From contig JAAZGG010000145.1 of the NCBI GenBank assembly GCA_012511355.1, positions 1 through 16,885 of the forward strand: a stretch of DNA of 16,885 bases, in the 5' to 3' direction. Under the pieces are notes generated by a model. That model did not search any database and was not told the origin of the DNA. It saw only the letters and a list, made by a program, of their open reading frames with translations. Source of the DNA: a bacterium (GTDB taxonomy: Bacteria; Bacillota_I; Bacilli_A; RFN20; UBA1709). The position numbers were made by a program, and so were the translations under genes. Shown one piece after another: positions 677 to 15,002 of this stretch (the first letter of the stretch is position 1; each line of letters starts with the position of its first letter).

Positions 677-710
677 AAGGGGTTTTACGGAGCCGCAAAG
701 CCCCTTTTTC
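677..710 (+). terminator. Rho-independent terminator after the surface-protein gene
   Basis: AAGGGG (677-682) pairs with CCCCTT (701-706). The stem extends inward by U-A and G-U pairs (683-686 with 697-700), and a T run follows to 709. The hairpin begins 17 bases after the stop codon. It ends only about 20 bases before the c-di-GMP aptamer. Confidence 0.85.
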
Positions 711-726
711 TTAAAAGTTTATTAAT

Positions 727-791
727 TTAGCAAAACCATGGAAACATGGTGACGCAAAGCTATAGGGTCTAAATAGACAGCCAGTTGCAAA
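727..791 (+). promoter_or_regulatory. Cyclic di-GMP-I (GEMM-I) riboswitch aptamer
   Basis: The class I c-di-GMP aptamer pattern is complete. P1 is GCAA (730-733) with UUGC (785-788). P2 is the perfect hairpin ACCAUG-GAAA-CAUGGU (735-750) with a GNRA tetraloop. The conserved GACGCAAAGC (751-760) follows. P3 is GUCU-AAAU-AGAC (767-778) inside the flanks GGGUCUAA and AGCCAG. The family binds c-di-GMP and controls motility, adhesion and surface genes. Here it leads into a signal peptidase / AAA+ / EAL operon, which independently supports a c-di-GMP role. No convincing promoter lies between the upstream terminator and the aptamer. Confidence 0.88.
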
Positions 792-821
792 TTTCTTTGT
801 CGCTGGCTGTTTCTGTCTTTT
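775..821 (+). terminator. Expression-platform terminator of the c-di-GMP riboswitch
   Basis: AGACAGCCAG (775-784) pairs with CTGGCTGTTT (803-812). An inner stem, GCAAA (787-791) with TTTGT (796-800), is closed by TTTC. The tail to 821 is T-rich. The 5' arm is the 3' strand of aptamer P3 plus the conserved AGCCAG, and the inner loop consumes the 3' strand of P1. Aptamer and terminator therefore cannot form together. I infer that c-di-GMP binding prevents termination (ON switch). Confidence 0.7.
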
Positions 822-839
822 AGGAAGGTAAAAGCCCAA

Positions 840-899: not shown

Positions 900-929
900 T
901 AGACAAGGGCGTTTTAACTATACTATAAT
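900..929 (+). promoter_or_regulatory. Candidate sigma-A promoter of the signal peptidase operon
   Basis: TAGACA (900-905) and a perfect TATAAT (924-929) are separated by 18 bases, predicting a start near 936. It lies downstream of the c-di-GMP riboswitch, so transcripts from it would bypass riboswitch control and give basal expression. The rest of the 661-982 gap holds the terminator, aptamer, expression platform and inverted repeat listed separately. Confidence 0.55.
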
Positions 930-982: not shown

Positions 983-1747
983 ATGGAAAAGAAAGCAACA
1001 GGAAAAAAAGTTGGGCGTATAATTGGCAATATCGTTTTTGTTTTATTTCTAGTTTTAATTCTCTTTATTGCCATCACAAACTTGAAAGCCAAATCCAATC
1101 ATGGAATTCCCAATATCTTTGGTAAAGGCTTTTTAGAAGTTGCGTCTGACTCAATGAATGGCGATAAGCCCGATTCATTTAAAAAAGGCGACTTAGTAGT
1201 CGTTGACGTCGTAGATCTAAACGATTCTCGGGTGAAAGAATTAAAAGTTGATGACATCATAACTTATTATGACACTGGTGAAGCTAAAATAATTTCACAC
1301 CGAATTATTGAAGTAAAAGGTACAGCGAACATACCAGTATATGTTGTCAAGGGTGACTCGCCCGATGCTGTTAAGACCACAGAGGTTAACTACACTAGCG
1401 TTATGGCAATTTATAACCATAAAGTTGCCGGCTTAGGAACTGTCGTTGGTTGGTTTTCCACGCCGACTGGTTTCTTTATCATCGTCGTCTTACCCTGTGT
1501 GGCCTTCTTAGTTTATGAAATTTATCATTTTGTCAAGACTTTGACTGCTTATAATAAAGAGAAAAATAAAGGGGCCAGTAAGGAAGTTGAAACTGAACAA
1601 CTGGTGGCCCTTAGAAAAGAGGCGCTGGAGGATCTAGTTAAATCTGGAGTCTTGAGTACTGAAGAGGCTGAAACAAAATTGAAGGAATATCAAGATAGTT
1701 TAAGTCAGACTGAAGTTGAAGAAGTCAAAGAAGAAAATAAAGAATAA
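983..1747 (+). CDS. Signal peptidase I, SipW/ER-type (Ser/His)
   Basis: This 254-residue membrane protease should cleave signal peptides on the outer face of the cytoplasmic membrane. Helix 1 spans about 11-32. The catalytic Ser57 is in ASDSM (54-58). His106 in ISHRI replaces the Lys general base of the common bacterial enzyme, which defines the archaeal/ER/SipW type. The KGDSPD box (123-128) follows, and helix 2 spans about 161-184. The tail from about 190 to 254 is highly charged and probably a cytoplasmic coiled coil. It is longer than in SipW and may dock the ATPase encoded next. SD GAGG lies 7 bases before the ATG. It is the first gene of the operon behind the c-di-GMP riboswitch. In Bacillus, SipW matures TasA-like fibre proteins, so the surface protein at the window start is a plausible substrate. 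Confidence 0.88.
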   Translation: MEKKATGKKVGRIIGNIVFVLFLVLILFIAITNLKAKSNHGIPNIFGKGFLEVASDSMNGDKPDSFKKGDLVVVDVVDLNDSRVKELKVDDIITYYDTGEAKIISHRIIEVKGTANIPVYVVKGDSPDAVKTTEVNYTSVMAIYNHKVAGLGTVVGWFSTPTGFFIIVVLPCVAFLVYEIYHFVKTLTAYNKEKNKGASKEVETEQLVALRKEALEDLVKSGVLSTEEAETKLKEYQDSLSQTEVEEVKEENKE

Positions 1748-1749
1748 CA

Positions 1750-1775
1750 AGAAAGGGTAAGCAATTGCCCTTTCT
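1750..1775 (+). repeat. Intercistronic hairpin between signal peptidase and ATPase genes
   Basis: AGAAAGGG (1750-1757) pairs with CCCTTTCT (1768-1775), and the spacer contains the palindrome GCAATTGC. The hairpin would hide the SD-like AAAGGG and the TTG at 1765. This favours the ATG at 1795, which has its own SD, as the start of the next gene. With no T run, it is more likely an RNA-processing or stability element than a terminator. Confidence 0.5.
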
Positions 1776-1794
1776 AAATGAAGGGGTTGGTCTA

Positions 1795-3414
1795 ATGGAC
1801 GGTATTAATAGATTCGCACAATATTTCATGGATTTTTGTTCTAATGTTTGGGAACAAATTAAGAGTTTTTTTGTTGCCTTTTATAATATTGTAGCGGATG
1901 TCTTAGTTCGCAATCACATTTCTAATTTTCGTATAATCGGGGAATATGCTGATAAGTTCACCGTTTTATCTTGGATTTTATTTGTGTTTATTGAAGCGCT
2001 TATTTGCGCCTTTTTAGTTTTATTAGTTTGGAAGATTGTCCAATTATTGAGTCGTTGGCTCAAGTTTAGACGCAAAGAAGTTGACAAAGAAGATCTTCTA
2101 ATTGAAATCGCCAAATTAAAAACGCAAGTAGTCAAAGTTACTAGAGAAAAGGATCGCATTCTTTCTTTACAACTCGGCAGTGGGGGAGGACTTGTCGATA
2201 CTGAGAGTTTAAATCTTGGTCCTAGTTTAGTTCCCTCAACAGCCCTAGACACGATTCCGGATACTACAGAAATTGTTAGCACCACTGAAAGCAAGGATGA
2301 ATTAGCGCAGGTTGTTAGCGATTCGCGCTTCTCAAAACTAATTTTAGTTGATGAAAAATATAAAAATGGTAATTATGTTGTGACCATGACGGCGGAGGAT
2401 ATGGTTGGTTTACCAGAACTGGTTGCCCGCTTTGTCAACTATTCAGCCTCACAACACAAGTTATTCTATACCCCTAAGACCATTTCTAAATATGTGGCGG
2501 GGTTAGCTACTTCTAAGATTATTATTCTTGAAGGTATCTCGGGTACAGGTAAAACCTCTTTACCCTATGCCTTCTCCCGTTTCCTTAAGAATCAAGCGGT
2601 TATTGTTTCTGTTCAGCCTTCTTGGCGTGATCGGACTGAGATTTTAGGTTATCTTAACGAATTCACTAAGAAATTTAATGAGACCGATTTATTAAAAGCC
2701 GTTTATGAGGTTTCTTATCGTGAGGCTGTTAACACTATCGTGCTTGATGAATTGAATTTAGCCCGTATTGAGTATTATTTCGCTGAGTTCCTTTCGGTGA
2801 TGGAAATGCCGGATATCTCTGAGTGGAAGCTAGATTTAGTACCCACTCAACTACCTGGAGATCCCAAGCACTTAAATGGTGGCAAACTTTTAATTCCCCA
2901 AAATGTTTGGTATGTAGGAACGGCTAACCGTGATGACTCCACCTTTACGATTACCGATAAGGTCTATGATAGAGCCATCACCATCTATCTTAATGAGAGA
3001 GCGAAATACTTTGATGCGCCCTATACTGAGCCGGTTAATATCTCCTATGATTATTTAGAAAAGCTCTTTAGTATGGCGGCTGAGAAACATCCGATTTCTT
3101 TAAAGGCTCTTCAAAATCTTGATAAGATTGATGTCTTTATTCAGGATAATTTCAAGATTGCTTTTGGTAACCGTATTCTCAAACAGATTAGAATCTTTGT
3201 TCCTGTCTATGTTGCCTGTGGCAATACCGAGACTGAGGGACTTGACTTTATGATCTGTACCAAAATCCTTAAAAAGTTTGAGGCCTTAAACCTTCCGTTC
3301 TTACGCAAAGAGTTAGAAGAGTTAATTTCCTTAATTCAAAAATTATTTGGCAAAGACGCCTTCACCGAATCAATTGCCTATCTGCGCGATTTATTGAAGA
3401 TGGCGGGCGCTTAG
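1795..3414 (+). CDS. Membrane-anchored McrB-like AAA+ ATPase
   Basis: I chose the ATG at 1795 because SD AAGGGG (1781-1786) lies 8 bases upstream. An in-frame TTG at 1765 would add ten residues. In 539-residue numbering, an amphipathic N-terminus is followed by a transmembrane helix (about 56-80), a charged coiled coil (about 94-126) and a low-complexity Ser/Thr linker (about 128-170). The AAA+ core has Walker A GISGTGKT (247-254) and Walker B with Asp318-Glu319 followed by LNLAR, the McrB/MoxR-like DE(I/L)N(R/L) form. The sensor-1 segment GTANRDDST (375-383) and a following DRA Arg complete it. Such ATPases are hexameric NTP-driven remodelers, and McrB powers the McrC nuclease. Here the N-terminal DNA-binding domain is replaced by a membrane anchor, so the substrate is probably at the membrane. 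The next gene, 15 bases downstream, is its likely partner. Confidence 0.8.
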   Translation: MDGINRFAQYFMDFCSNVWEQIKSFFVAFYNIVADVLVRNHISNFRIIGEYADKFTVLSWILFVFIEALICAFLVLLVWKIVQLLSRWLKFRRKEVDKEDLLIEIAKLKTQVVKVTREKDRILSLQLGSGGGLVDTESLNLGPSLVPSTALDTIPDTTEIVSTTESKDELAQVVSDSRFSKLILVDEKYKNGNYVVTMTAEDMVGLPELVARFVNYSASQHKLFYTPKTISKYVAGLATSKIIILEGISGTGKTSLPYAFSRFLKNQAVIVSVQPSWRDRTEILGYLNEFTKKFNETDLLKAVYEVSYREAVNTIVLDELNLARIEYYFAEFLSVMEMPDISEWKLDLVPTQLPGDPKHLNGGKLLIPQNVWYVGTANRDDSTFTITDKVYDRAITIYLNERAKYFDAPYTEPVNISYDYLEKLFSMAAEKHPISLKALQNLDKIDVFIQDNFKIAFGNRILKQIRIFVPVYVACGNTETEGLDFMICTKILKKFEALNLPFLRKELEELISLIQKLFGKDAFTESIAYLRDLLKMAGA

Positions 3415-3429
3415 TTGGGGTGCGTTTAA

Positions 3430-5124
3430 ATGGCAAAGGCAAAGACCAATTATGAGAAACGCTTTTATCAACGCATCTTAAAAGCTATCAATAGAGAAGA
3501 CGCCAAAGGGTTTTATAAAGAATTTAATAATGCGATTAAAAGTGGCAAAATGACCATTAGCCAGATGCGGACCAAGAGTCAGCTTTCTTTTGATGCGACT
3601 TGGATCAATGTTATTACCAGTTACTTACCATATCTAGAGAAGATTGTTCGCAATCCTAGGATCTATATGGAAGCCATCGAGATGGTAACACCAATTCAAT
3701 CAGCCAAGAAAATCACCGCTCGTTCCGTTCAGCATCTTTCAGCCAATGTGCAAAATGTTCAAGAGATTCGTAGTGATGGAACCATCGTTCCTTCTAAGGT
3801 GTTATCCACCATCTACGAAGACACGATGAATATCTATGAAAACCGCTTTATTATGACACTTATTTCTAAACTGGCGGCTTTTGTGGAAGTGCGTTATGAG
3901 CAAATTGCTGAAAAAACGGAGTCCTATCAAACCGATTATTTAAGAGTTCAAGATGTCTTTAAGTGGCGAAACTATGATATTGAAGCCAATATTGATTTAA
4001 AGGTTAAAGAACAGGTTGAGGATGAAGAAAGTCAAAAGAATTTAGAACTCGTCGAGGATATCAGAACCATCCGTAGTTATGTACGGGGTTTTATGCAGTC
4101 GGTTTTCTATCAAACCATGAAGGAAAGTCGGGCGCGAGCCGTTAATCCGCCGATTCTAAGGACCAATATCATTGTTAAGTCAGTTGAATATAATAGTTGC
4201 TTAAAATTATGGCAGTTCTTAGATTCCTATCGCCAACTTGGGGTCAGTGTTGGTGTCTTTGATAAGGAACTGGATTTTGATGAAGACTTTGTCAATAAGG
4301 TCAGCGATATGTTAATGCTGAATTATTCTTTAATCACCGAGAATCAAGCTGATCGTGAAGACACTTATAATCTTTTGCCCTATAAAAAGCGTAGAGAAAA
4401 AGAAATACGCTTTAGTAAGACCGAATTAGTTGTTGAGGAAATGCTGGATGAGGATGCCGATATTAAAGCCGTTCCCCCTACTATTTCCGAATACTACTAT
4501 CAAAGGATGAAGCAGATTTCAAAGACCAACTTCACTAGACAAGTGAATTCCGGTATTTCTTATAATCGTTCCTTTTTAAATATTTATAAGAAAATGTTAA
4601 AAATTGAAAATGGTGTGCAAAAAGAAATTCTACAAGGTCTTGAAAAAAGATTACGTAAAAGATATCCAACTAAGATAAAATCCGCCGCCAAGGTCACTTT
4701 TTTGAAAAGAGTTCGCTCAATTTATAAATCGGTGATTTTAATTAAGAAAGCCGACTTAGAAAGCGCGGAGGCGAAGTTAAGAAAAGCCGAAGCCGATCTT
4801 GAGAAAAACATGGCTTTAATTAAACCTGAAACCAAAGCTTTCCGCAAGAAAGAGCGGGAAAAAGCGGCGCGCCGGGCTAGAAAGAAAGCTCGGGCCAAGG
4901 GCTTACCAGTACCGAAGATGAAAGATTTAATTAAAGAGGAAGAAGAAGAGCCAATCATTGATCTTCCCGAAGTTGACGATGAAGATCTTTCTGAAAGCGA
5001 ATTATTAGCTAGTGAGGATGAAGTCGTTAAAAAGCCCGTAAAAAAGGCGGTAAACAAAGGCGAACCGGAGCCGATTGATGTCGTCATTGTTAAAGCTAAT
5101 GAGGATGAAGAGGATGAAGAGTAA
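3430..5124 (+). CDS. DUF2357-like partner of the McrB-like ATPase, coiled-coil and acidic tail
   Basis: This is a 564-residue soluble protein with no signal peptide or membrane helix. SD GGGGTG lies 8 bases before the ATG. Residues about 55-300 contain a segment with the pattern IYEDTMNIYENRF (128-140), which resembles DUF2357 proteins found beside McrB-like ATPases; this is recalled from the family, not searched. DUF2357 proteins often carry a C-terminal PD-(D/E)xK nuclease, but I see no such motif. Instead, residues 380-490 are a long basic helical or coiled-coil region ending in an Arg/Lys/Ala-rich stretch (about 471-491), then an acidic tail (about 502-564) of Glu/Asp runs. I infer that it is a McrC-like adaptor that stimulates or tethers the ATPase, not an active nuclease. 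The exact role is unknown. The stop overlaps the start of the second signal peptidase. Confidence 0.6.
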   Translation: MAKAKTNYEKRFYQRILKAINREDAKGFYKEFNNAIKSGKMTISQMRTKSQLSFDATWINVITSYLPYLEKIVRNPRIYMEAIEMVTPIQSAKKITARSVQHLSANVQNVQEIRSDGTIVPSKVLSTIYEDTMNIYENRFIMTLISKLAAFVEVRYEQIAEKTESYQTDYLRVQDVFKWRNYDIEANIDLKVKEQVEDEESQKNLELVEDIRTIRSYVRGFMQSVFYQTMKESRARAVNPPILRTNIIVKSVEYNSCLKLWQFLDSYRQLGVSVGVFDKELDFDEDFVNKVSDMLMLNYSLITENQADREDTYNLLPYKKRREKEIRFSKTELVVEEMLDEDADIKAVPPTISEYYYQRMKQISKTNFTRQVNSGISYNRSFLNIYKKMLKIENGVQKEILQGLEKRLRKRYPTKIKSAAKVTFLKRVRSIYKSVILIKKADLESAEAKLRKAEADLEKNMALIKPETKAFRKKEREKAARRARKKARAKGLPVPKMKDLIKEEEEEPIIDLPEVDDEDLSESELLASEDEVVKKPVKKAVNKGEPEPIDVVIVKANEDEEDEE

Positions 5125-5725
5125 GAAGGGCAAGTATCTCAAAAGAATCGCTTTAGTTCTTCTTGAATTACTCATCCTTTATATTGTTATTAAAGTCGTT
5201 ATTGGGGTGGCGACAAATAGTCCAGTAAATGTCTTTAATCACTATGTCTTCGTTGTTAAGACGGAGTCGATGCAAGACTTTATTAACCCGGGGGATATCG
5301 TTTTTATCCAAAAGTGTCAGATTGATAAGGCGCAAATAGGCGATGTCATCTCCTTTACTTGTATTAACCCCACTCAAACTATTTATGGTAGTAACATCAT
5401 CCATCGCGTAGTTGATAGAGAAGTTGTTGATGGCCTTATAAGACTAACAACTAAAGGCGATGCCAATGTTATTATTGATGAATACCAAGTTACTGGGGCC
5501 AACTTTGTCGGCCGAGTTACCCTAGTATCCCCCTTCCTAGGCCGCGTCTTTAATCTATTTGTCAGTACTTACCTTTCTTTATATCTAATTGTTCTTGTTC
5601 TACTTTTATTTGTTATTGTCAGTGTGATTAAACGTATGATCAAGTTAGTAAAAGAAGAGCATAGACAAAAGGAAAAAGAGAAAATCAAAGAAGAAATTCT
5701 AGCCGAAAAAAGAAGAGGAGAATAG
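5114..5725 (+). CDS. Second SipW/ER-type signal peptidase I (Ser/His)
   Basis: Several in-frame starts exist upstream (TTG 5075; ATG 5078, 5099, 5105). I chose ATG 5114 because GAGG (5101-5104) lies 9 bases before it and it yields a normal basic N-terminus ahead of helix 1. In 203-residue numbering, helix 1 spans about 11-32. Catalytic Ser52 is in KTESM, and His97 in IIHRVV replaces Lys. The KGDAN box is at 114-118. Helix 2 spans about 150-173, and the tail from 174 is very Lys/Glu-rich. The CDS overlaps the DUF2357-like gene by 11 bases, implying translational coupling. It is clearly different from the first peptidase in this operon (TESM against SDSM, shorter tail), so the pair is not a recent tandem copy. 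The two may have different substrates or act as a heteromer. Confidence 0.85.
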   Translation: MKSKKGKYLKRIALVLLELLILYIVIKVVIGVATNSPVNVFNHYVFVVKTESMQDFINPGDIVFIQKCQIDKAQIGDVISFTCINPTQTIYGSNIIHRVVDREVVDGLIRLTTKGDANVIIDEYQVTGANFVGRVTLVSPFLGRVFNLFVSTYLSLYLIVLVLLLFVIVSVIKRMIKLVKEEHRQKEKEKIKEEILAEKRRGE

Positions 5726-5728
5726 AGC

Positions 5729-8272
5729 ATGAAAAAAAGGAGCATCTTTATCTTTCTAGCAGTTTCCATTATTCTTTCCTTATTCATCAGCATAATTTAT
5801 ATCGTTAAAGCCTCTTCAATTGTTGAAGCTAAAGCCCACAGCAACGTGCATAGTGTGGCTACAGAAACCGCGGCTTACTTAGATAACAATGTGCAGAATA
5901 CTCATGATGATATTGCTTTTTATATTGAAAATTCTACGAAAGAAAAAGGTGAACTGGTCAGTGAGCTCTATTCTAAATATAGTAGTCGTTTTATCGGCTT
6001 TGGTTATTGTGAGGGCATAAGCGGCGAAGATCCTAAACTCGTTTCTTATGCGGGCAAGGATGATTATGAGTTATTTGCTTTTAACTTTTCCCATTCGGAG
6101 CGCTTTTTCGCCCAGCAATGTGCCATAACTAATTTATCAAGATTCTTTGATAATCTAACGGATGAGCAAAATGAAGTGGTCATCTTCTATCATTTTGACG
6201 ATTATTTTGCCTTTCAGCCCTTTTCGGCTTATGAGACGATGTTGAGCAGTGCTTATCCTGAGGGCACTAGATATCTTGTTAGCACAGGGGATGGCTTAAT
6301 CTTAGCCAATTCTTTCAGTGACGATATGTCGATGAGCAGCATTTTTAGAATGTCAGTTGATCCCTTCCCTGGTTTTGTTGAGGATATCTTAGCAGGTGAG
6401 GGTCAATCTAAAATAATGAAACTCAATAAAGGCTTATCACATTTAGTTACTGTTTCCACTTGTTTAGAAGATTTTAATGATGATGGTGTTTATATCTTTG
6501 TCATCGTCGATAATATTTATATCACTAATTTCTTGAATTCACTGCTTATCATCACCGCGATTTACAATGCCTTCTTTATTGTGATCAATGTTGGGATGGC
6601 GCTAACCATGTATTTTACTAAGCGCAGCAGTCGGGACTTAATTATTCCCTTTTCCTATGAAGATCATTATGTTTTACTGGTCGGTGAAGATGGTAAGATT
6701 ATAAGTAAAAACAAGCGTTTTAGCAAATCAAAGTATAATTGTGGCAATCTACTAAGAACAGGGGTTGTTGAACTTAAGGAGCAAACAACTGAAGAATTAA
6801 AGAACTTATTAGAAACAGCTTCTTCTTTGACTTTGCGTTATGTCTTTGATGATAAGATTGAAGATATCAATTTCTTGATTTTAAATTCAAAGATCGGCTA
6901 TCAATTAATTGCCGAAGCCTATGATGATGCTTATATAGCTCGTGATAGGAAGGGTAGCAGAAGAGGGGTTAGTATTGATTATGCTTATCAAGATGATTTT
7001 TACGATATTTTAAATAGAAAAGCGCTATTAGAACGTTTGAAGGATACAATTGCCAACAAGAAGAAATATTTAAATGTTTATCTTGTTTGTTGCTCCTTGA
7101 AAAATCACGATGAAATTACGCGTTTATATGGTCAGCATATTCACGAGATGATTAATACAGAAGTTATTAATCGCTTGAAGAAGTCTTTAGATGGTAATGA
7201 GATCTACTCTATCAATGACAATTTCTGTGCTTTCTTTGTTCATTTAAAGGATAACTTCAATGATTTAAGAAGACAGATGGAAGTTATTAATAAAGAGCAA
7301 AGACATCCTATCAGTATCTATTCCAGTGATTCAATAGTTGAGCCCTATTTCGGTATTTATCCTCTTTCTTTAATTGAGGCCAATGAAGATCCAACGCCAA
7401 GAGGTATTATCAATAAGGCGATAATTGCCTATAACCGGGCTAAACAGAGTAAGGATCAAAACTATTATTTATACGATATCAGTTCCGAGTCTTTGCTCGA
7501 ACGTGAGCAAATAGTAGCGGATGATATTAAAAAAGGTATTGAAAACAATGAGTTTGAGACCCACTTCCAACCAGTTTACAATTTAAAAGAAGATCGGGTA
7601 TCGGGCTTTGAATGTCTGTTAAGATGGAATAATGACAAATACCGTTTTGAGTCGCCGTATGAATATATCAAAGTTGCCGAGCATGCGGGCTATATCCACG
7701 ATATTGGTATTTTTACTTTCCGCAAGGCCTTGGAGTTACTTAAAGAGTTAAATAGAGATGATATTCGAGTATCGGTTAACGTTTCGCTTGCTCAATTTAT
7801 GCAGGCTGGCTTTACCACGGATGTTATTAATCTTTTTAAGGAATATGATGTTCCTTATTCCAGTGTGGCGATGGAAATCACTGAGACTTTCTTTGCCGAG
7901 TCTATTCAAGAAATTACTGATAAATTAGAATATATTCGTTCCTTTGGCATTAAAATTTATCTAGATGACTTTGGGACGGGCTACTCATCTTTGCTTTATT
8001 TAGCAGAGTTCCCAGTGGATGTTATTAAGATTGATAAAGAATTTACCAATCAAATTAAAGCTAATGAAAGTGTAAGAACAATTATGTCTTATTTAATTGG
8101 TATGGCTAATGCCATAGGTTTAGATGTGGTGGCTGAGGGTGTAGAAACCGACTATCAGCTCAAGTTCTATGAACGCCAGAAATGCAATTATATACAAGGC
8201 TTTTATTTCTCTAAACCGCTACCAGTGTCTGAGGTCCAAAAGGCCTTAGAAATCAAAAGGAGTGATGTCTAA
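5729..8272 (+). CDS. Membrane sensor c-di-GMP phosphodiesterase (degenerate GGDEF + intact EAL)
   Basis: This 847-residue protein has helix 1 (about 5-27), a roughly 235-residue extracytoplasmic region (28-265, Cache-like by pattern) and helix 2 (about 268-296). A PAS-like segment (about 308-400), a GGDEF-like domain (about 420-585) and an EAL domain (about 595-840) follow. The GGDEF signature reads NDNFC (496-500), so it cannot be a cyclase but could bind GTP or a regulator. The EAL domain keeps all expected metal and catalytic residues: Glu628 (ECL), Arg632, Asn684, Glu716, Asp746-Asp747 (DDFGTG), Lys767, Glu803 (AEGVE) and Gln823. It should hydrolyse c-di-GMP to pGpG. SD AGGAG lies 8 bases before the ATG, and the gene starts 3 bases after the peptidase stop. 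As the product of a c-di-GMP-activated operon it would form negative feedback tuned by an external signal. Confidence 0.9.
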   Translation: MKKRSIFIFLAVSIILSLFISIIYIVKASSIVEAKAHSNVHSVATETAAYLDNNVQNTHDDIAFYIENSTKEKGELVSELYSKYSSRFIGFGYCEGISGEDPKLVSYAGKDDYELFAFNFSHSERFFAQQCAITNLSRFFDNLTDEQNEVVIFYHFDDYFAFQPFSAYETMLSSAYPEGTRYLVSTGDGLILANSFSDDMSMSSIFRMSVDPFPGFVEDILAGEGQSKIMKLNKGLSHLVTVSTCLEDFNDDGVYIFVIVDNIYITNFLNSLLIITAIYNAFFIVINVGMALTMYFTKRSSRDLIIPFSYEDHYVLLVGEDGKIISKNKRFSKSKYNCGNLLRTGVVELKEQTTEELKNLLETASSLTLRYVFDDKIEDINFLILNSKIGYQLIAEAYDDAYIARDRKGSRRGVSIDYAYQDDFYDILNRKALLERLKDTIANKKKYLNVYLVCCSLKNHDEITRLYGQHIHEMINTEVINRLKKSLDGNEIYSINDNFCAFFVHLKDNFNDLRRQMEVINKEQRHPISIYSSDSIVEPYFGIYPLSLIEANEDPTPRGIINKAIIAYNRAKQSKDQNYYLYDISSESLLEREQIVADDIKKGIENNEFETHFQPVYNLKEDRVSGFECLLRWNNDKYRFESPYEYIKVAEHAGYIHDIGIFTFRKALELLKELNRDDIRVSVNVSLAQFMQAGFTTDVINLFKEYDVPYSSVAMEITETFFAESIQEITDKLEYIRSFGIKIYLDDFGTGYSSLLYLAEFPVDVIKIDKEFTNQIKANESVRTIMSYLIGMANAIGLDVVAEGVETDYQLKFYERQKCNYIQGFYFSKPLPVSEVQKALEIKRSDV

Positions 8273-9735
8273 TGATATTAGCAAGAACAGCAAGTACTAG
8301 TGATCCAGTCTTTACGGGTTTGATCATTATTGTGATAATTGGCCTAAGTGTTTTACTACTTTGGTCCATTATCCGCGAAATGAAAAAAAGAAAAAAAGAA
8401 CGGGAACAACCAAAAAAGACCCCAGGTTTAATGTCCTTATCCCATTTGACGGAGTCTTTAAACGAATTTGTTCGGGTTTATCACCTTTCTAAGAAGGCGA
8501 CAATTTTTGTCTTTTCCTTTGCTAATGCCAATGAACTAGCCGAGTCGTTTGGTCGTCGAACCGAGATGATTTTAAAAGATAAGGTTCTCCAGAATGTGAT
8601 AAAAATTCTCCCTAGAAACGCGGTTTTAGCTGAATACAGGAACGAAAGCGATAGTTACGCTTTACTATTAAGAGGCGATTTTCCTGAAGACAAACTCTTA
8701 AGTTTTGCTAACTACCTAGTCAGCGTTATTGAAACTCCTGTTGCGGTTCCTAACCTTGAGATTGAAATTTCCTATTCAGCTTATTTAGGTATTGTCTATT
8801 ATCCAACTCATGCCATTTCGGTTACTGATTTGTTAAACAAGGCCGATGTCGCTCTTTATATGAACCAGAAGAGCCCTAACACCAAATACACGGTTTATTC
8901 TTCCTCTTTCGCGGTTACCGAAGAAGAGAATCTTGTTTACTATAACCAAATCAAAGCCGCCATTAAAAACAAAGAATTTGAACTTTATTATCAACCAATT
9001 TGTGAATGTAAAACCCAAAACATTGTTGGTTTTGAAGCCTTGATTCGCTGGAAACATCCAGAATTAGGCATATTAAATCCAGCCAAATTCCTTTCTGTTT
9101 TAGAGAATTCTGGGGATATAAACTGGATTGGCAAATGGAGCATGCATGTTATCTGTGCTTACTATAATGAACAGCGCGCTCTTTTCAAAGAACATAATGT
9201 TTTCTTCTCAGTAAACCTTTCAGTTAAGCAATTGCTCAATGAGAACTTGGTCAATGATTTTGCCGCTATTCTCAATCAATATCATGTGCCTACTGACGCA
9301 ATTTGTTTTGAAATTGAAGAATATGCCCTTTATGAACGTTATCCTGTCATTCAAACAACGATTCGAGAATTAGGAGAGAAAGGTTTCAAACTCGCTATTG
9401 ATCACTTTGGTTTAGATTCTAATAACATCAAGAAATTAGAATCACAAGAACCCTATATGATTAAACTTGTAGCAAAAGACACCTTGGAAGCCCAAGACTC
9501 CTTTGTTGGGTCGCGTGTTTTCGAGATTTTAATTGATACCTGTAAAAAGCGAAATATTAAAATTTCCTCTTTAATGGTTGAAAATCAAGATGATATCAAA
9601 AAACTTGAAGAAAGCGGTTTTGATTATCAGCAAGGCTATTTTATTGCTGAGCCGATGAGTGCTAAAGACAATGCTGAATTCTTTTCCGCCAGCTTTCGCC
9701 TAAAAGAAGATGAAAGCAAGAAAAAGGAAGAATAA
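8272..9735 (+). CDS. Membrane EAL-domain protein with degenerate GGDEF and probably inactive EAL
   Basis: This 487-residue protein has one N-terminal membrane helix (about 14-36) and a basic linker. A GGDEF-like domain (about 52-210) has signature ESDSY (125-129), so it is not a cyclase. The EAL domain (about 222-470) keeps Glu255 (EAL), Arg259, Asn315, Glu347, Asp377, Lys398 and Gln454. The DDFGTG loop reads DHFGLD, so the second metal Asp is His378. The first Glu of AEGVE is Leu434. These losses normally abolish hydrolysis, which suggests a c-di-GMP receptor or an allosteric partner of the upstream phosphodiesterase. The start overlaps the preceding stop in TAATG, with SD AAAGGAG upstream, so the two are translationally coupled and probably made in fixed ratio. 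It is the last gene of the c-di-GMP module. Confidence 0.85.
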   Translation: MILARTASTSDPVFTGLIIIVIIGLSVLLLWSIIREMKKRKKEREQPKKTPGLMSLSHLTESLNEFVRVYHLSKKATIFVFSFANANELAESFGRRTEMILKDKVLQNVIKILPRNAVLAEYRNESDSYALLLRGDFPEDKLLSFANYLVSVIETPVAVPNLEIEISYSAYLGIVYYPTHAISVTDLLNKADVALYMNQKSPNTKYTVYSSSFAVTEEENLVYYNQIKAAIKNKEFELYYQPICECKTQNIVGFEALIRWKHPELGILNPAKFLSVLENSGDINWIGKWSMHVICAYYNEQRALFKEHNVFFSVNLSVKQLLNENLVNDFAAILNQYHVPTDAICFEIEEYALYERYPVIQTTIRELGEKGFKLAIDHFGLDSNNIKKLESQEPYMIKLVAKDTLEAQDSFVGSRVFEILIDTCKKRNIKISSLMVENQDDIKKLEESGFDYQQGYFIAEPMSAKDNAEFFSASFRLKEDESKKKEE

Positions 9736-12133: not shown

Positions 12134-12940
12134 ATGGATTGGATAGAATTTTTAAAATACATCCTATTAGGAATTGTACAAGGAGCCTGTGAAATTTTAC
12201 CGATTTCTTCTAGTGGGCATTTGGTTTTAGCATATGCCCTTTTGGGCTTTGAAGAAGTTAATTTAGCCTTCTCAGTTTTCTTACATTTTGCTTCTTTAAT
12301 TGCGGCTTTAATCTTTTTAAGAAAACAAGTTTGGCGTATTTTAAAAGGCAGCGCACTTTACCTTTTTAAAAAGGATCAAGAACAGAAAAACAATTTTCAC
12401 TATCTTTTACTTTTAATTATAAGTACAGCTGTCACGGCTGTTATCGGCCTTATATTTAAAGATCAAATGGCCAAACTTAGTTCAGTTGCTTTTGTTGGTA
12501 TAGCCTTGATAATAAACGGATTTTGGATTTTAATTTTCGATCATTTAAAGGGGGAAAGAAGAATAGATGATCTTCCCTTGTGGAAAGCTTTAATAATTGG
12601 CCTTGGGCAGGGGGTAGGCGTTTTACCAGGCATCTCTCGCAGTGGAGCAACTATAGGCACATCTATCTGTGTTGGACTCAAAAAAGAAGATGCCGCCGAA
12701 TACGCTTTCTTACTATTTCTTCCTATAACTTTAGGAGCCACTATTTTAGAGGTTCAAGATTTATTGACCGTTGATAAAAATTTAATTCCGGCGTATATTG
12801 CAGGTTTTGTTTTAGCTTTCTTAACCACCTATTTGGCCTTGGTTTTCTTCTTAAAAATTATTCGTAAACGCCGTTTATTACCTTTCGCTATTTATTGTTT
12901 TATTGTGGGCTTAACGGCGACTCTGGTGGCTTTTTTATAA
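12134..12940 (+). CDS. uppP: Undecaprenyl-diphosphatase UppP (BacA)
   Basis: This 268-residue polytopic membrane protein recycles undecaprenyl pyrophosphate to the monophosphate carrier used in peptidoglycan and wall polymer synthesis; overexpression in relatives gives bacitracin resistance. The first signature region has Glu20 and ILPISSSGH (21-29), and the second has PGISRSG (165-171) with Arg169. Both are catalytic in the family. Length is normal. The ATG directly follows the lipase stop, with GAGG 11 bases upstream, giving an ychF-lipase-uppP operon. The last 41 bases overlap the convergent folT gene on the other strand. Its presence indicates a walled organism, arguing against a Mollicute. 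Confidence 0.96.
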   Translation: MDWIEFLKYILLGIVQGACEILPISSSGHLVLAYALLGFEEVNLAFSVFLHFASLIAALIFLRKQVWRILKGSALYLFKKDQEQKNNFHYLLLLIISTAVTAVIGLIFKDQMAKLSSVAFVGIALIINGFWILIFDHLKGERRIDDLPLWKALIIGLGQGVGVLPGISRSGATIGTSICVGLKKEDAAEYAFLLFLPITLGATILEVQDLLTVDKNLIPAYIAGFVLAFLTTYLALVFFLKIIRKRRLLPFAIYCFIVGLTATLVAFL

Positions 12941-13451
12941 TTTTATATAAGCGCGGGTAACTTATATAGATTACAAGACAATAAACACAGGCAAAAGCTA
13001 GTGAAAACGCAAAGCGAAGGGCGATAGTCCCCACGGTTAAAGACAAAGGATAATCAAAAATCAAAGAATCTAGATAAAGGGCACAAGAATTAATGGCCGT
13101 AACACAAAGAGAAGTTGTAAAGGTAATAAGTATTACCTTTTTTAAATTGAAATTATCCTTTATTAGATATTTAGACATTAGACCGCTAAGAAAGCCCCAA
13201 AAAATGGGAGCAATCATCCAAAGAGCGGTAGTATAACTAAGACCATAAAAGAGCATTTGACTGATAAAACCAACAACCGCTCCCGCTAAAGCGCCCACCC
13301 AAGGGCCAAATAAAAAGCCCGCTAAAAGTAAGGGTAACCCATAGATAGTAAATTTAGAAATATTAGAGCGGACACTAATAACATCTAAAATCAGTGACAG
13401 GGCCGCCATACTAGCCGCCACCGCCATTTTATAAGTTTTTGAACTTTTCAT
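12900..13451 (-). CDS. folT: ECF transporter S component, folate-specific (FolT)
   Basis: This 183-residue membrane protein has about five or six hydrophobic segments. It opens with a basic stretch, then the helix MAVAASMAALSLILDVI, and the pattern FTIYGLPLLLAGFLFGPWVGALAGAVVGF is typical of FolT-type S components. It would capture folate and pair with a shared EcfAA'T energising module, which is not in this window. Folate specificity is supported by the THF riboswitch in its leader. SD AGGAGG lies 9 bases before the ATG, inside a regulatory hairpin. It is the only minus-strand gene here, and its 3' end runs 41 bases into uppP. Confidence 0.92.
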   Translation of the reverse strand: MKSSKTYKMAVAASMAALSLILDVISVRSNISKFTIYGLPLLLAGFLFGPWVGALAGAVVGFISQMLFYGLSYTTALWMIAPIFWGFLSGLMSKYLIKDNFNLKKVILITFTTSLCVTAINSCALYLDSLIFDYPLSLTVGTIALRFAFSLAFACVYCLVIYISYPRLYKIIKKPPESPLSPQ

Positions 13452-13453
13452 TG

Positions 13454-13492
13454 AAAAAGACCTCCTTTTAAGAGGTCCGCATAACAGCGGAC
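13454..13492 (-). promoter_or_regulatory. Competing hairpins of the folT expression platform
   Basis: On the minus strand, GUCCGC (13492-13487) can pair with GCGGAC (13480-13475). Alternatively GACCUC (13477-13472) can pair with GAGGUC (13464-13459), which hides the SD and is followed by five U residues. The arms share 13475-13477. The first hairpin also consumes part of aptamer P1. I infer that folate binding favours the second hairpin and shuts off folT, by SD sequestration and possibly termination. Confidence 0.65.
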
Positions 13493-13573
13493 GCGTTAGA
13501 AAACCGCCACTTAGTGTTCGCGCTAACGCAACTTCCCATCATTAGCTACTTTACGCTTTCTAACTACTCTGTT
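13483..13573 (-). promoter_or_regulatory. Tetrahydrofolate (THF) riboswitch aptamer
   Basis: Read on the minus strand, P1 is AACAG (13573-13569) with CUGUU (13487-13483). The conserved GAGUAG, GCGUAAAG, GAUGGGA, GUUG, GGCGGU and GUCCGCU blocks occur in the expected order over 91 bases, as in THF aptamers of Bacillota. It directly precedes a folate S component, the classical target. Confidence 0.88.
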
Positions 13574-14315: not shown

Positions 14316-14327
14316 ACGTGTTAGAAT
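14299..14327 (+). promoter_or_regulatory. Candidate promoter for thiT at the end of ung
   Basis: TTGATT (14299-14304) and TAGAAT (14322-14327) are 17 bases apart, overlapping the ung 3' end. The predicted start (about 14334) falls at the very edge of the TPP aptamer. The aptamer may instead be transcribed from the ung promoter. Confidence 0.35.
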
Positions 14328-14414
14328 AAGCGCGGGAGCTCACGATATGGGCTGAGAGTATCGTATTTGCGATAGACCGATATACCTGATCTAGATAATG
14401 CTAGCGGAGGAAAG
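14326..14414 (+). promoter_or_regulatory. TPP riboswitch (THI element)
   Basis: The conserved blocks are present in order: CGGGAGCTC (14332-14340), GGGCTGAGAG (14349-14358) closed by ACGATA/TATCGT, ACCTGATCTAG (14384-14394), then ATAATGCTAGCGGAGG (14395-14410), with the CTAG/CTAG P4 stem. The SD GGAGG (14406-14410) is part of the 3' conserved segment, so TPP binding should block translation of thiT directly. Confidence 0.93.
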
Positions 14415-14417
14415 AAT

Positions 14418-15002
14418 ATGAACATCAGAATCAGACAGATGACTGAAACCGCTATTTTGATTGCTTTAGCGGTTTTATTAGATTTATTATTCAAAGCAAT
14501 ACCAATTTTAAAGATGCCTACCGGTGGGAGTTTTTCACTAACAATGCTACCACTTATAATTAACGGTTATCGCAACGGCCTTAAATGGGGCATAATTAGT
14601 GGTCTTGCCTATGCTGTTATCAATTTTGCTCTTGATGGCTATTATTGGCATTGGGGTTCAATTGTTTTTGATTATCTCTTGGCCTTTGGTTTACTGGGCT
14701 TAACAGGGTTATTTAAAAATCTTGGGCGAAGAAAACCCATCTATATTTTTGGGATTATTTTTGTTTGTTTTTTACGTTATCTTTGCCATAGTTTGAGCGG
14801 AGTTATCTTTTTTAGTTCTTATGCTGAAGATTGGTTTACTGAAAACCCAACCTCCTTTGCCTACGGCTCAGTTTTCCTTTATTCCTTTGTTATTTACAAC
14901 GGTCCTTATATGTTAGCCAACACTATTGGCTGTTTAATTGCATCTTTAGCGCTTTATCGCTTTATTTATCCAGTCAAGAAGGTGTATAATGGCAACAAGT
15001 AG
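14418..15002 (+). CDS. thiT: ECF transporter S component, thiamine-specific (ThiT)
   Basis: This 194-residue protein has about six hydrophobic helices. The pattern MPTGGSFSLTMLPLIINGYRNG (about 34-55) matches the ThiT thiamine-binding S component, in which this stretch lines the substrate site. Aromatic residues such as Trp76 and Trp78 in YYWHWGS fit a stacked thiamine pocket. It would need an EcfAA'T module encoded elsewhere. SD GGAGG is embedded in the TPP riboswitch 7 bases before the ATG, which confirms both specificity and repression by TPP. The next gene starts 12 bases after the stop, so the two probably share a transcript. Confidence 0.93.
   Translation: MNIRIRQMTETAILIALAVLLDLLFKAIPILKMPTGGSFSLTMLPLIINGYRNGLKWGIISGLAYAVINFALDGYYWHWGSIVFDYLLAFGLLGLTGLFKNLGRRKPIYIFGIIFVCFLRYLCHSLSGVIFFSSYAEDWFTENPTSFAYGSVFLYSFVIYNGPYMLANTIGCLIASLALYRFIYPVKKVYNGNK

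Follow-up and report, generated by a model that had tools for sequence, protein, structure and literature searches.

An McrB-like gene pair between two signal peptidases

The stretch of bacterial DNA analysed here, 16,885 nucleotides long and referred to as the window, is a contig (JAAZGG010000145.1; our G000:C111) belonging to an 886,552-base draft genome that is ~67% complete. On its + strand lie four core genes, all open and tightly packed: one for a membrane-anchored McrB-like AAA+ protein (AAA), followed by one for a DUF2357 protein, the two enclosed by genes for SipW-type signal peptidases (Table 1). Two genes for GGDEF-EAL proteins complete the operon on its downstream side. The original prediction of such an operon is borne out by the open reading frames (ORFs) and by profile matches. 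We surveyed it in 81 loci, consisting of the window and the best 80 of at least 535 confirmed relatives from a genome-collection scan, and in a second sample of 58 related genomes chosen by kinship rather than by match.

With an E cut-off of 0.01, the only solved structures matched by our profile of 22 family rows for the AAA protein are McrB chains (three sequences, E ~1e-4 to 2e-4). All 81 loci have Walker A, 73 the Walker B pattern DE-NLA and 80 N-x-D-D; across the 22 rows of the profile N388-x-D390-D391 is invariant, corresponding to the NxD motif followed by D. Spaced without gaps against McrB, these letters also admit the reading NxxD. A simple hydropathy test predicts at least one membrane helix in the AAA protein of every locus, in the window a single one at residues 70–88 of the TTG-started ORF, and the 168 N-terminal residues that hold it match no DNA-binding domain. 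Weak tests by sequence gave no FtsB match for the helix and coiled-coil region. To call the protein an ATPase, as originally predicted, is too strong: McrB is a GTPase, and we speak here of a putative NTPase (nucleoside triphosphatase).

The partner's sole Pfam match is DUF2357 (PF09823; 31.3 bits, cut-off 23.3), and its structure model matches only the N-terminal, non-nuclease half of McrC (McrC residues 3–191). Its predicted lack of a PD-(D/E)xK motif held up: no such nuclease was seen by Pfam, in the structure model or in conservation among 81 homologues, where no position past residue 271 is at least 80% conserved and no conserved acid-x-K/R pair lies past residue 155. The expected basic coiled coil and acidic tail were likewise found, at residues 415–510 (30 K/R, 15 D/E) and 511–564 (6 K/R, 21 D/E), the model placing at 418–490 a single long helix, a coiled coil fused to the McrC homologue. 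None of 70 DUF2357 proteins has a predicted membrane helix. No HEPN or other nuclease was found among the operon genes of the window, the neighbours in other loci being only partly annotated.

Signal peptidases and inheritance of the operon

As foreseen, Ser/His peptidases flank the pair: the first matches the SipW model NF046067 and the second the archaeal-type signal peptidase I model TIGR02228, and both ORFs retain the Ser (SDSM and ESM) and His (HRI and HRV) motifs. Far from occurring mainly without peptidases, the pair is accompanied by a SipW-type enzyme in all 81 loci (135 copies, all co-directional with the operon), directly upstream of AAA in 67 and at most four genes downstream in 62. 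Among copies of at least 150 amino acids (aa), SM is kept in 129 of 131 and HR[IVLAM] in 114, most of the others having His followed by another residue; the copy upstream of one AAA-only operon (L041, 1038–1676) lacks both the Ser and the His motif. In a tree of the 131 copies, 64 upstream and 61 downstream copies fall on opposite sides of the midpoint root (support 94/80), with six others scattered over both sides, and position labels require 4 and 2 changes against ~44 when shuffled. Because the copies split in this manner, the paralogue pair must be old. Past their second helix the C-terminal tails of the two groups have medians of 51 and 45 residues and are 44–48% charged.

In the 58 related genomes, 31 of 40 strong AAA matches (E 1e-70 or better) have a peptidase no more than 6 kb away, against ~2% expected by chance for an assumed mean genome of 1.3 Mb, and 1 of 8 weaker matches has one. 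Six of the nine exceptions have a two-AAA layout, one (G055) sits at a contig start, another (G024:C8) has a peptidase that our own model found, and the last (G022) shows none. Some relatives keep other company: L111–L113 carry AAA–DUF2357–AAA beside proteins of more than 1000 aa, most starting with a membrane helix, and have no SipW match; L131, L132 and L135 combine an AAA protein of ~900 aa with DUF2357, again with no SipW match in the fetched stretch; and in L114 an AAA protein of ~600 aa with SipW precedes genes that by eye resemble ABC transporters. The pair might on this evidence be a general membrane machine with varying partners, SipW cargo being one client only, but the SipW link holds without exception among the 81 best loci, and we regard this explanation as unlikely.

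DUF2357 is the gene next to AAA in 70 of the 81 loci. Of the other 11, three reach a contig edge (L051, L066, L070) and eight have no DUF2357 nearby (L041, L043, L045, L055, L062, L068, L072, L076); all eight carry one elsewhere in the genome, several of these matches crossing at least one stop codon (open frames 514–636 aa). Two such operons lie close together on each of two contigs, PGXL01000003.1 (L043 and L024) and DIER01000016.1 (L041 and L026), one having AAA only and the other AAA plus DUF2357; the operon without DUF2357 may make use of its neighbour's copy. Searching with the AAA protein gave at least 8000 matches at E 0.001 or better. The gene is patchy, sometimes multicopy and no core gene of the phylum, since it was found in 17 of 149 genomes sampled from that phylum (E 1e-70 or better) and in 33 of the 58 close relatives (E 0.001). 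Loci occur in Acholeplasma granularum (L014), A. oculi (L061), Paracholeplasma vituli (L006) and Peloplasma aerotolerans (L038).

Across the 45 loci with all four genes, AAA distances correlate with those of DUF2357 (r 0.96) and of the two peptidases (r 0.87 and 0.89; highest of 500 shuffles 0.29). These correlations fit a unit whose genes are inherited together, something not required of a drifting defence cassette, and common descent of the hosts alone could account for part of them. In L106 and L108 the pair has, as judged by eye, dnaK/dnaJ-like genes on one side and on the other two housekeeping-like genes that recur in both, a setting shared by two genomes that suggests vertical inheritance. 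A membrane-tethered anti-phage defence system derived from McrBC would explain the McrB/McrC ancestry and the PADLOC candidate model PDC-M26A, which matches 22 of 22; set against these are the missing nuclease, the ubiquitous peptidases, the correlated distances with their conserved gene order and the riboswitches described below, and we consider defence very improbable. A PADLOC scan of 100 of 250 neighbour ORFs (E 1e-10) matched 31 families, the strongest match being PDC-S01 at 2e-123; among the families listed mad3 has 9 members, mad8 4, two families 2 each and 21 others 1 each, and as the matching proteins are not named, defence islands are neither shown nor excluded.

A c-di-GMP riboswitch and candidate cargo

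A link to cyclic diguanylate (c-di-GMP), guessed originally from the EAL genes, is stronger than supposed, for a c-di-GMP-I riboswitch precedes the operon. Rfam detected the aptamer in 7 of 7 sources tried, and a model built from those 13 copies found 84 complete and 2 cut copies in 1.2 Mb, all on the operon strand, the 84 lying in 50 of the 81 loci. In the 80 cases where a following gene was called, it belongs to the surface cluster in 53, to other small clusters in 18 (7+5+4+2, several of those proteins with AWF-type signals), to the peptidase–AAA operon in 6, the window included, and to something else in 3; judged by the genes that follow, the riboswitch tracks primarily the cargo and secondarily the motor operon. 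Where at least 8 kb of sequence precedes AAA, 34 of 39 loci contain a riboswitch, 32 of them upstream of AAA; of the remaining 42 loci, 16 contain one. Two were found in the window's draft genome, one preceding the operon and the other preceding two AWF-type secreted proteins. Among the 58 related genomes 11 have the riboswitch, 8 of these with a strong AAA match; of the 19 copies, 7 are no more than 10 kb away from an AAA match. For the other 12, ten surrounding stretches were judged by eye. What follows the riboswitch is an AWF-type secreted protein in six (L121, L122, L125, L126, L127, L129); in L128 it is SipW genes together with short secreted proteins, in L123 and L130 GGDEF/EAL genes, and in L124 nothing clear.

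The antisense of the aptamer 3' strand and then a T run follow 55 of the 84 copies, against 1.4% of shuffles. In the window the corresponding hairpin appears in the computed fold and was not reported by a pattern scan, which with a loop limit of 8 found no terminator in 600–1010. Aptamer and terminator are predicted to be mutually exclusive, so c-di-GMP should turn expression ON; given the promoter-like site between riboswitch and peptidase, the operon may also have an independent promoter. GGDEF/EAL genes occur in 28 of the 81 loci, and in 18 of the 20 two-copy loci that show all eight EAL positions the first copy keeps all eight while the second has lost one or two, which, with what we take to be the catalytic positions among them, suggests a pair of one enzyme and one receptor.

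Secreted-looking proteins cluster in 67 of the 81 loci (189 copies, all co-directional). Many carry a T[FY]AWF signal, and a crude test finds a SipW-like signal in 138 of 175 with an intact start; the curated model TIGR04088 matched 1 of 10, below its cut-off. The weak match list of one modelled subunit includes TasA and donor-strand pilins, and the immunoglobulin (Ig)-like surface protein at the start of the window has fn3/Ig_7 matches below cut-off only. A 767-aa operon protein in A. granularum (L014, 14666–16969) has carbohydrate-binding modules (CBM_5_12 in four stretches), with an AWF-type signal in front.

A putative surface-fibre module

The lost nuclease, the membrane location, the peptidases, the fibre-like secreted proteins and the c-di-GMP switch together argue that the gene pair probably helps to build the cell surface rather than to fight viruses. 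Surface building as the role of the module is well supported; the motor's own job we infer. The original lean towards the envelope or secretion over restriction was right, and its idea that the motor itself remodels membrane proteins or secretion shares that inferred standing. We think it rather likely that the operon serves surface-fibre biogenesis under c-di-GMP switching, with a membrane-tethered McrB ring and its activator DUF2357 powering or gating how SipW cargo is processed and assembled. Secreted Ig-like subunits would enter the membrane with SipW-type signal anchors, be cleaved from them by the two specialized peptidases and assemble outside the cell, probably by donor-strand exchange like TasA. 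The AAA+ protein would form a ring, tethered through helix and coiled coil to the inner face of the membrane, with the DUF2357 protein, an McrC without nuclease, plugging the pore as activator; its long coiled coil, in place of the nuclease, could reach partners such as the charged peptidase tails, and NTP hydrolysis would power or gate the processing and release of cargo.

Several observations weigh against this proposal. One related genome (G008) has the riboswitch, SipW, AWF-type proteins and a 1712-aa protein but no AAA match, so the cargo is not strictly dependent on the motor; other branches of the same pair lack a SipW match; PADLOC lists AAA as a defence candidate; and BsaA of Clostridium perfringens polymerizes with SipW, the word 'ATPase' being absent from the main text of that report (PMC7395162).

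The ring might instead act as a gatekeeper or in quality control, extracting stuck signal-anchored cargo or switching the peptidases via their C-terminal tails, without driving assembly. The length and charge of those tails and the presence of cargo and SipW in G008 are consistent with such a role, as are the habits of the AAA+ family, but contact with peptidases or cargo is itself hypothetical, and we hold this role only as a tentative alternative. A bolder version of the fibre-module proposal, which we offer as a speculation, is that an McrBC-type machine has become a membrane-anchored fibre-assembly motor: the DUF2357 stalk would turn or wobble in the pore of the tethered McrB ring, in the way proposed for McrC, and the coiled-coil shaft of this stalk would work the SipW peptidases or the cargo anchors. 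The result would be an NTP-driven machine dedicated to assembling TasA-type donor-strand fibres and switched on by c-di-GMP through riboswitches. To our knowledge no such machine was known for these fibres. If true, a restriction-type motor has been reused for cell-surface building, and automated tools that label such pairs as defence are misleading.

Features of the window

Coordinates are collected in Table 1. The AAA gene probably starts at ATG 1795 rather than TTG 1765, and the second peptidase probably near ATG 5114, overlapping the DUF2357 stop. Further downstream lie a tetrahydrofolate (THF) riboswitch (13483–13573, -), directly upstream of a - strand gene for a small membrane protein (12900–13451), and a thiamine pyrophosphate (TPP) riboswitch (14322–14430, +), upstream of another (14418–15002).

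Table 1. Features of the operon and its surroundings in the window
Feature	Position	Strand	Basis
Secreted-looking Ig-like surface protein gene, 3' part (cut by contig start)	4..660	+	ORF; W-x-E-G-x-D end pattern of SURF family
Terminator-like hairpin 3' of surface-protein gene	678..709	+	By eye
c-di-GMP-I riboswitch aptamer (RF01051)	719..792	+	62.5 bits, gathering 35, E 1.7e-9
Terminator-like hairpin, 5' arm = aptamer 3' strand; predicted ON switch	775..822	+	Sequence, fold, arms
Promoter-like site TAGACA-18-TATAAT, between riboswitch and operon	900..929	+	11/12 match; chance expectation 1.1 sites
SipW-type Ser/His signal peptidase, upstream paralogue, charged C-terminal tail	983..1747	+	NF046067 E 1.5e-24; tree
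Membrane-anchored McrB-like AAA+ (helix, coiled coil, Walker A, Walker B, N-x-D-D)	1795..3414	+	Profile, hydropathy; ORF open from TTG 1765
DUF2357 protein: McrC N-terminal-half-like, nuclease not seen, long coiled coil, acidic tail	3430..5124	+	
Second SipW-type Ser/His signal peptidase, downstream paralogue	5114..5725	+	TIGR02228 E 7.5e-19; tree; ORF open from TTG 5075
Membrane GGDEF-EAL protein, all eight EAL positions tested intact	5729..8272	+	
Membrane GGDEF-EAL protein, degenerate EAL (two of eight positions lost)	8272..9735	+	

Relation to known systems

The module had been thought undescribed, wrongly, because the CoCoPALM group is already named, and deferred, in PMC11090510. In that paper, CoCoPALM has an NxD-type McrB GTPase domain, the NxD often followed by D or E, fused to a membrane helix and coiled coil homologous to FtsB, together with an McrC homologue bearing a coiled coil and neighbours of the signal peptidase family. 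With its NxD McrB domain, membrane helix and coiled coil, McrC-homologue coiled coil and signal peptidase neighbours, the system of the window fits a member of this named but uncharacterized kind. Literature searches (CoCoPALM; DUF2357/McrB; McrB with signal peptidase, pilus or transmembrane), judged from their listings, brought up, as reports that we recognized as relevant, only PMC11090510 and its preprint, and in the literature searched no function is shown for the group, which was named from sequence alone. Newly added here are its riboswitch, cargo and peptidase paralogues, which turn a vague 'McrBC-like' label into a testable hypothesis; these and the GGDEF-EAL pair go beyond the CoCoPALM passages of that source.

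The insertion of McrC into the McrB pore and the rotation model on which we draw are described in PMC6624300. As in Escherichia coli McrBC, the AAA+ domain is nearest to McrB and the DUF2357 model aligns to McrC, but here no PD-(D/E)xK nuclease or DNA-binding domain is recognized and a membrane anchor stands instead. A degenerate GGDEF-EAL receptor beside a large surface protein recalls the arrangement of LapD–LapG–LapA, an analogy only; the peptidases here are of SipW type, and no search was made for LapG. In the SipW–TasA and C. perfringens sipW–bsaA fibre operons a SipW-type peptidase likewise lies beside secreted subunits, and the modelled subunit here is a weak match to TasA; the present operon differs from these in having two peptidase paralogues, an McrB-type motor pair and c-di-GMP riboswitches.
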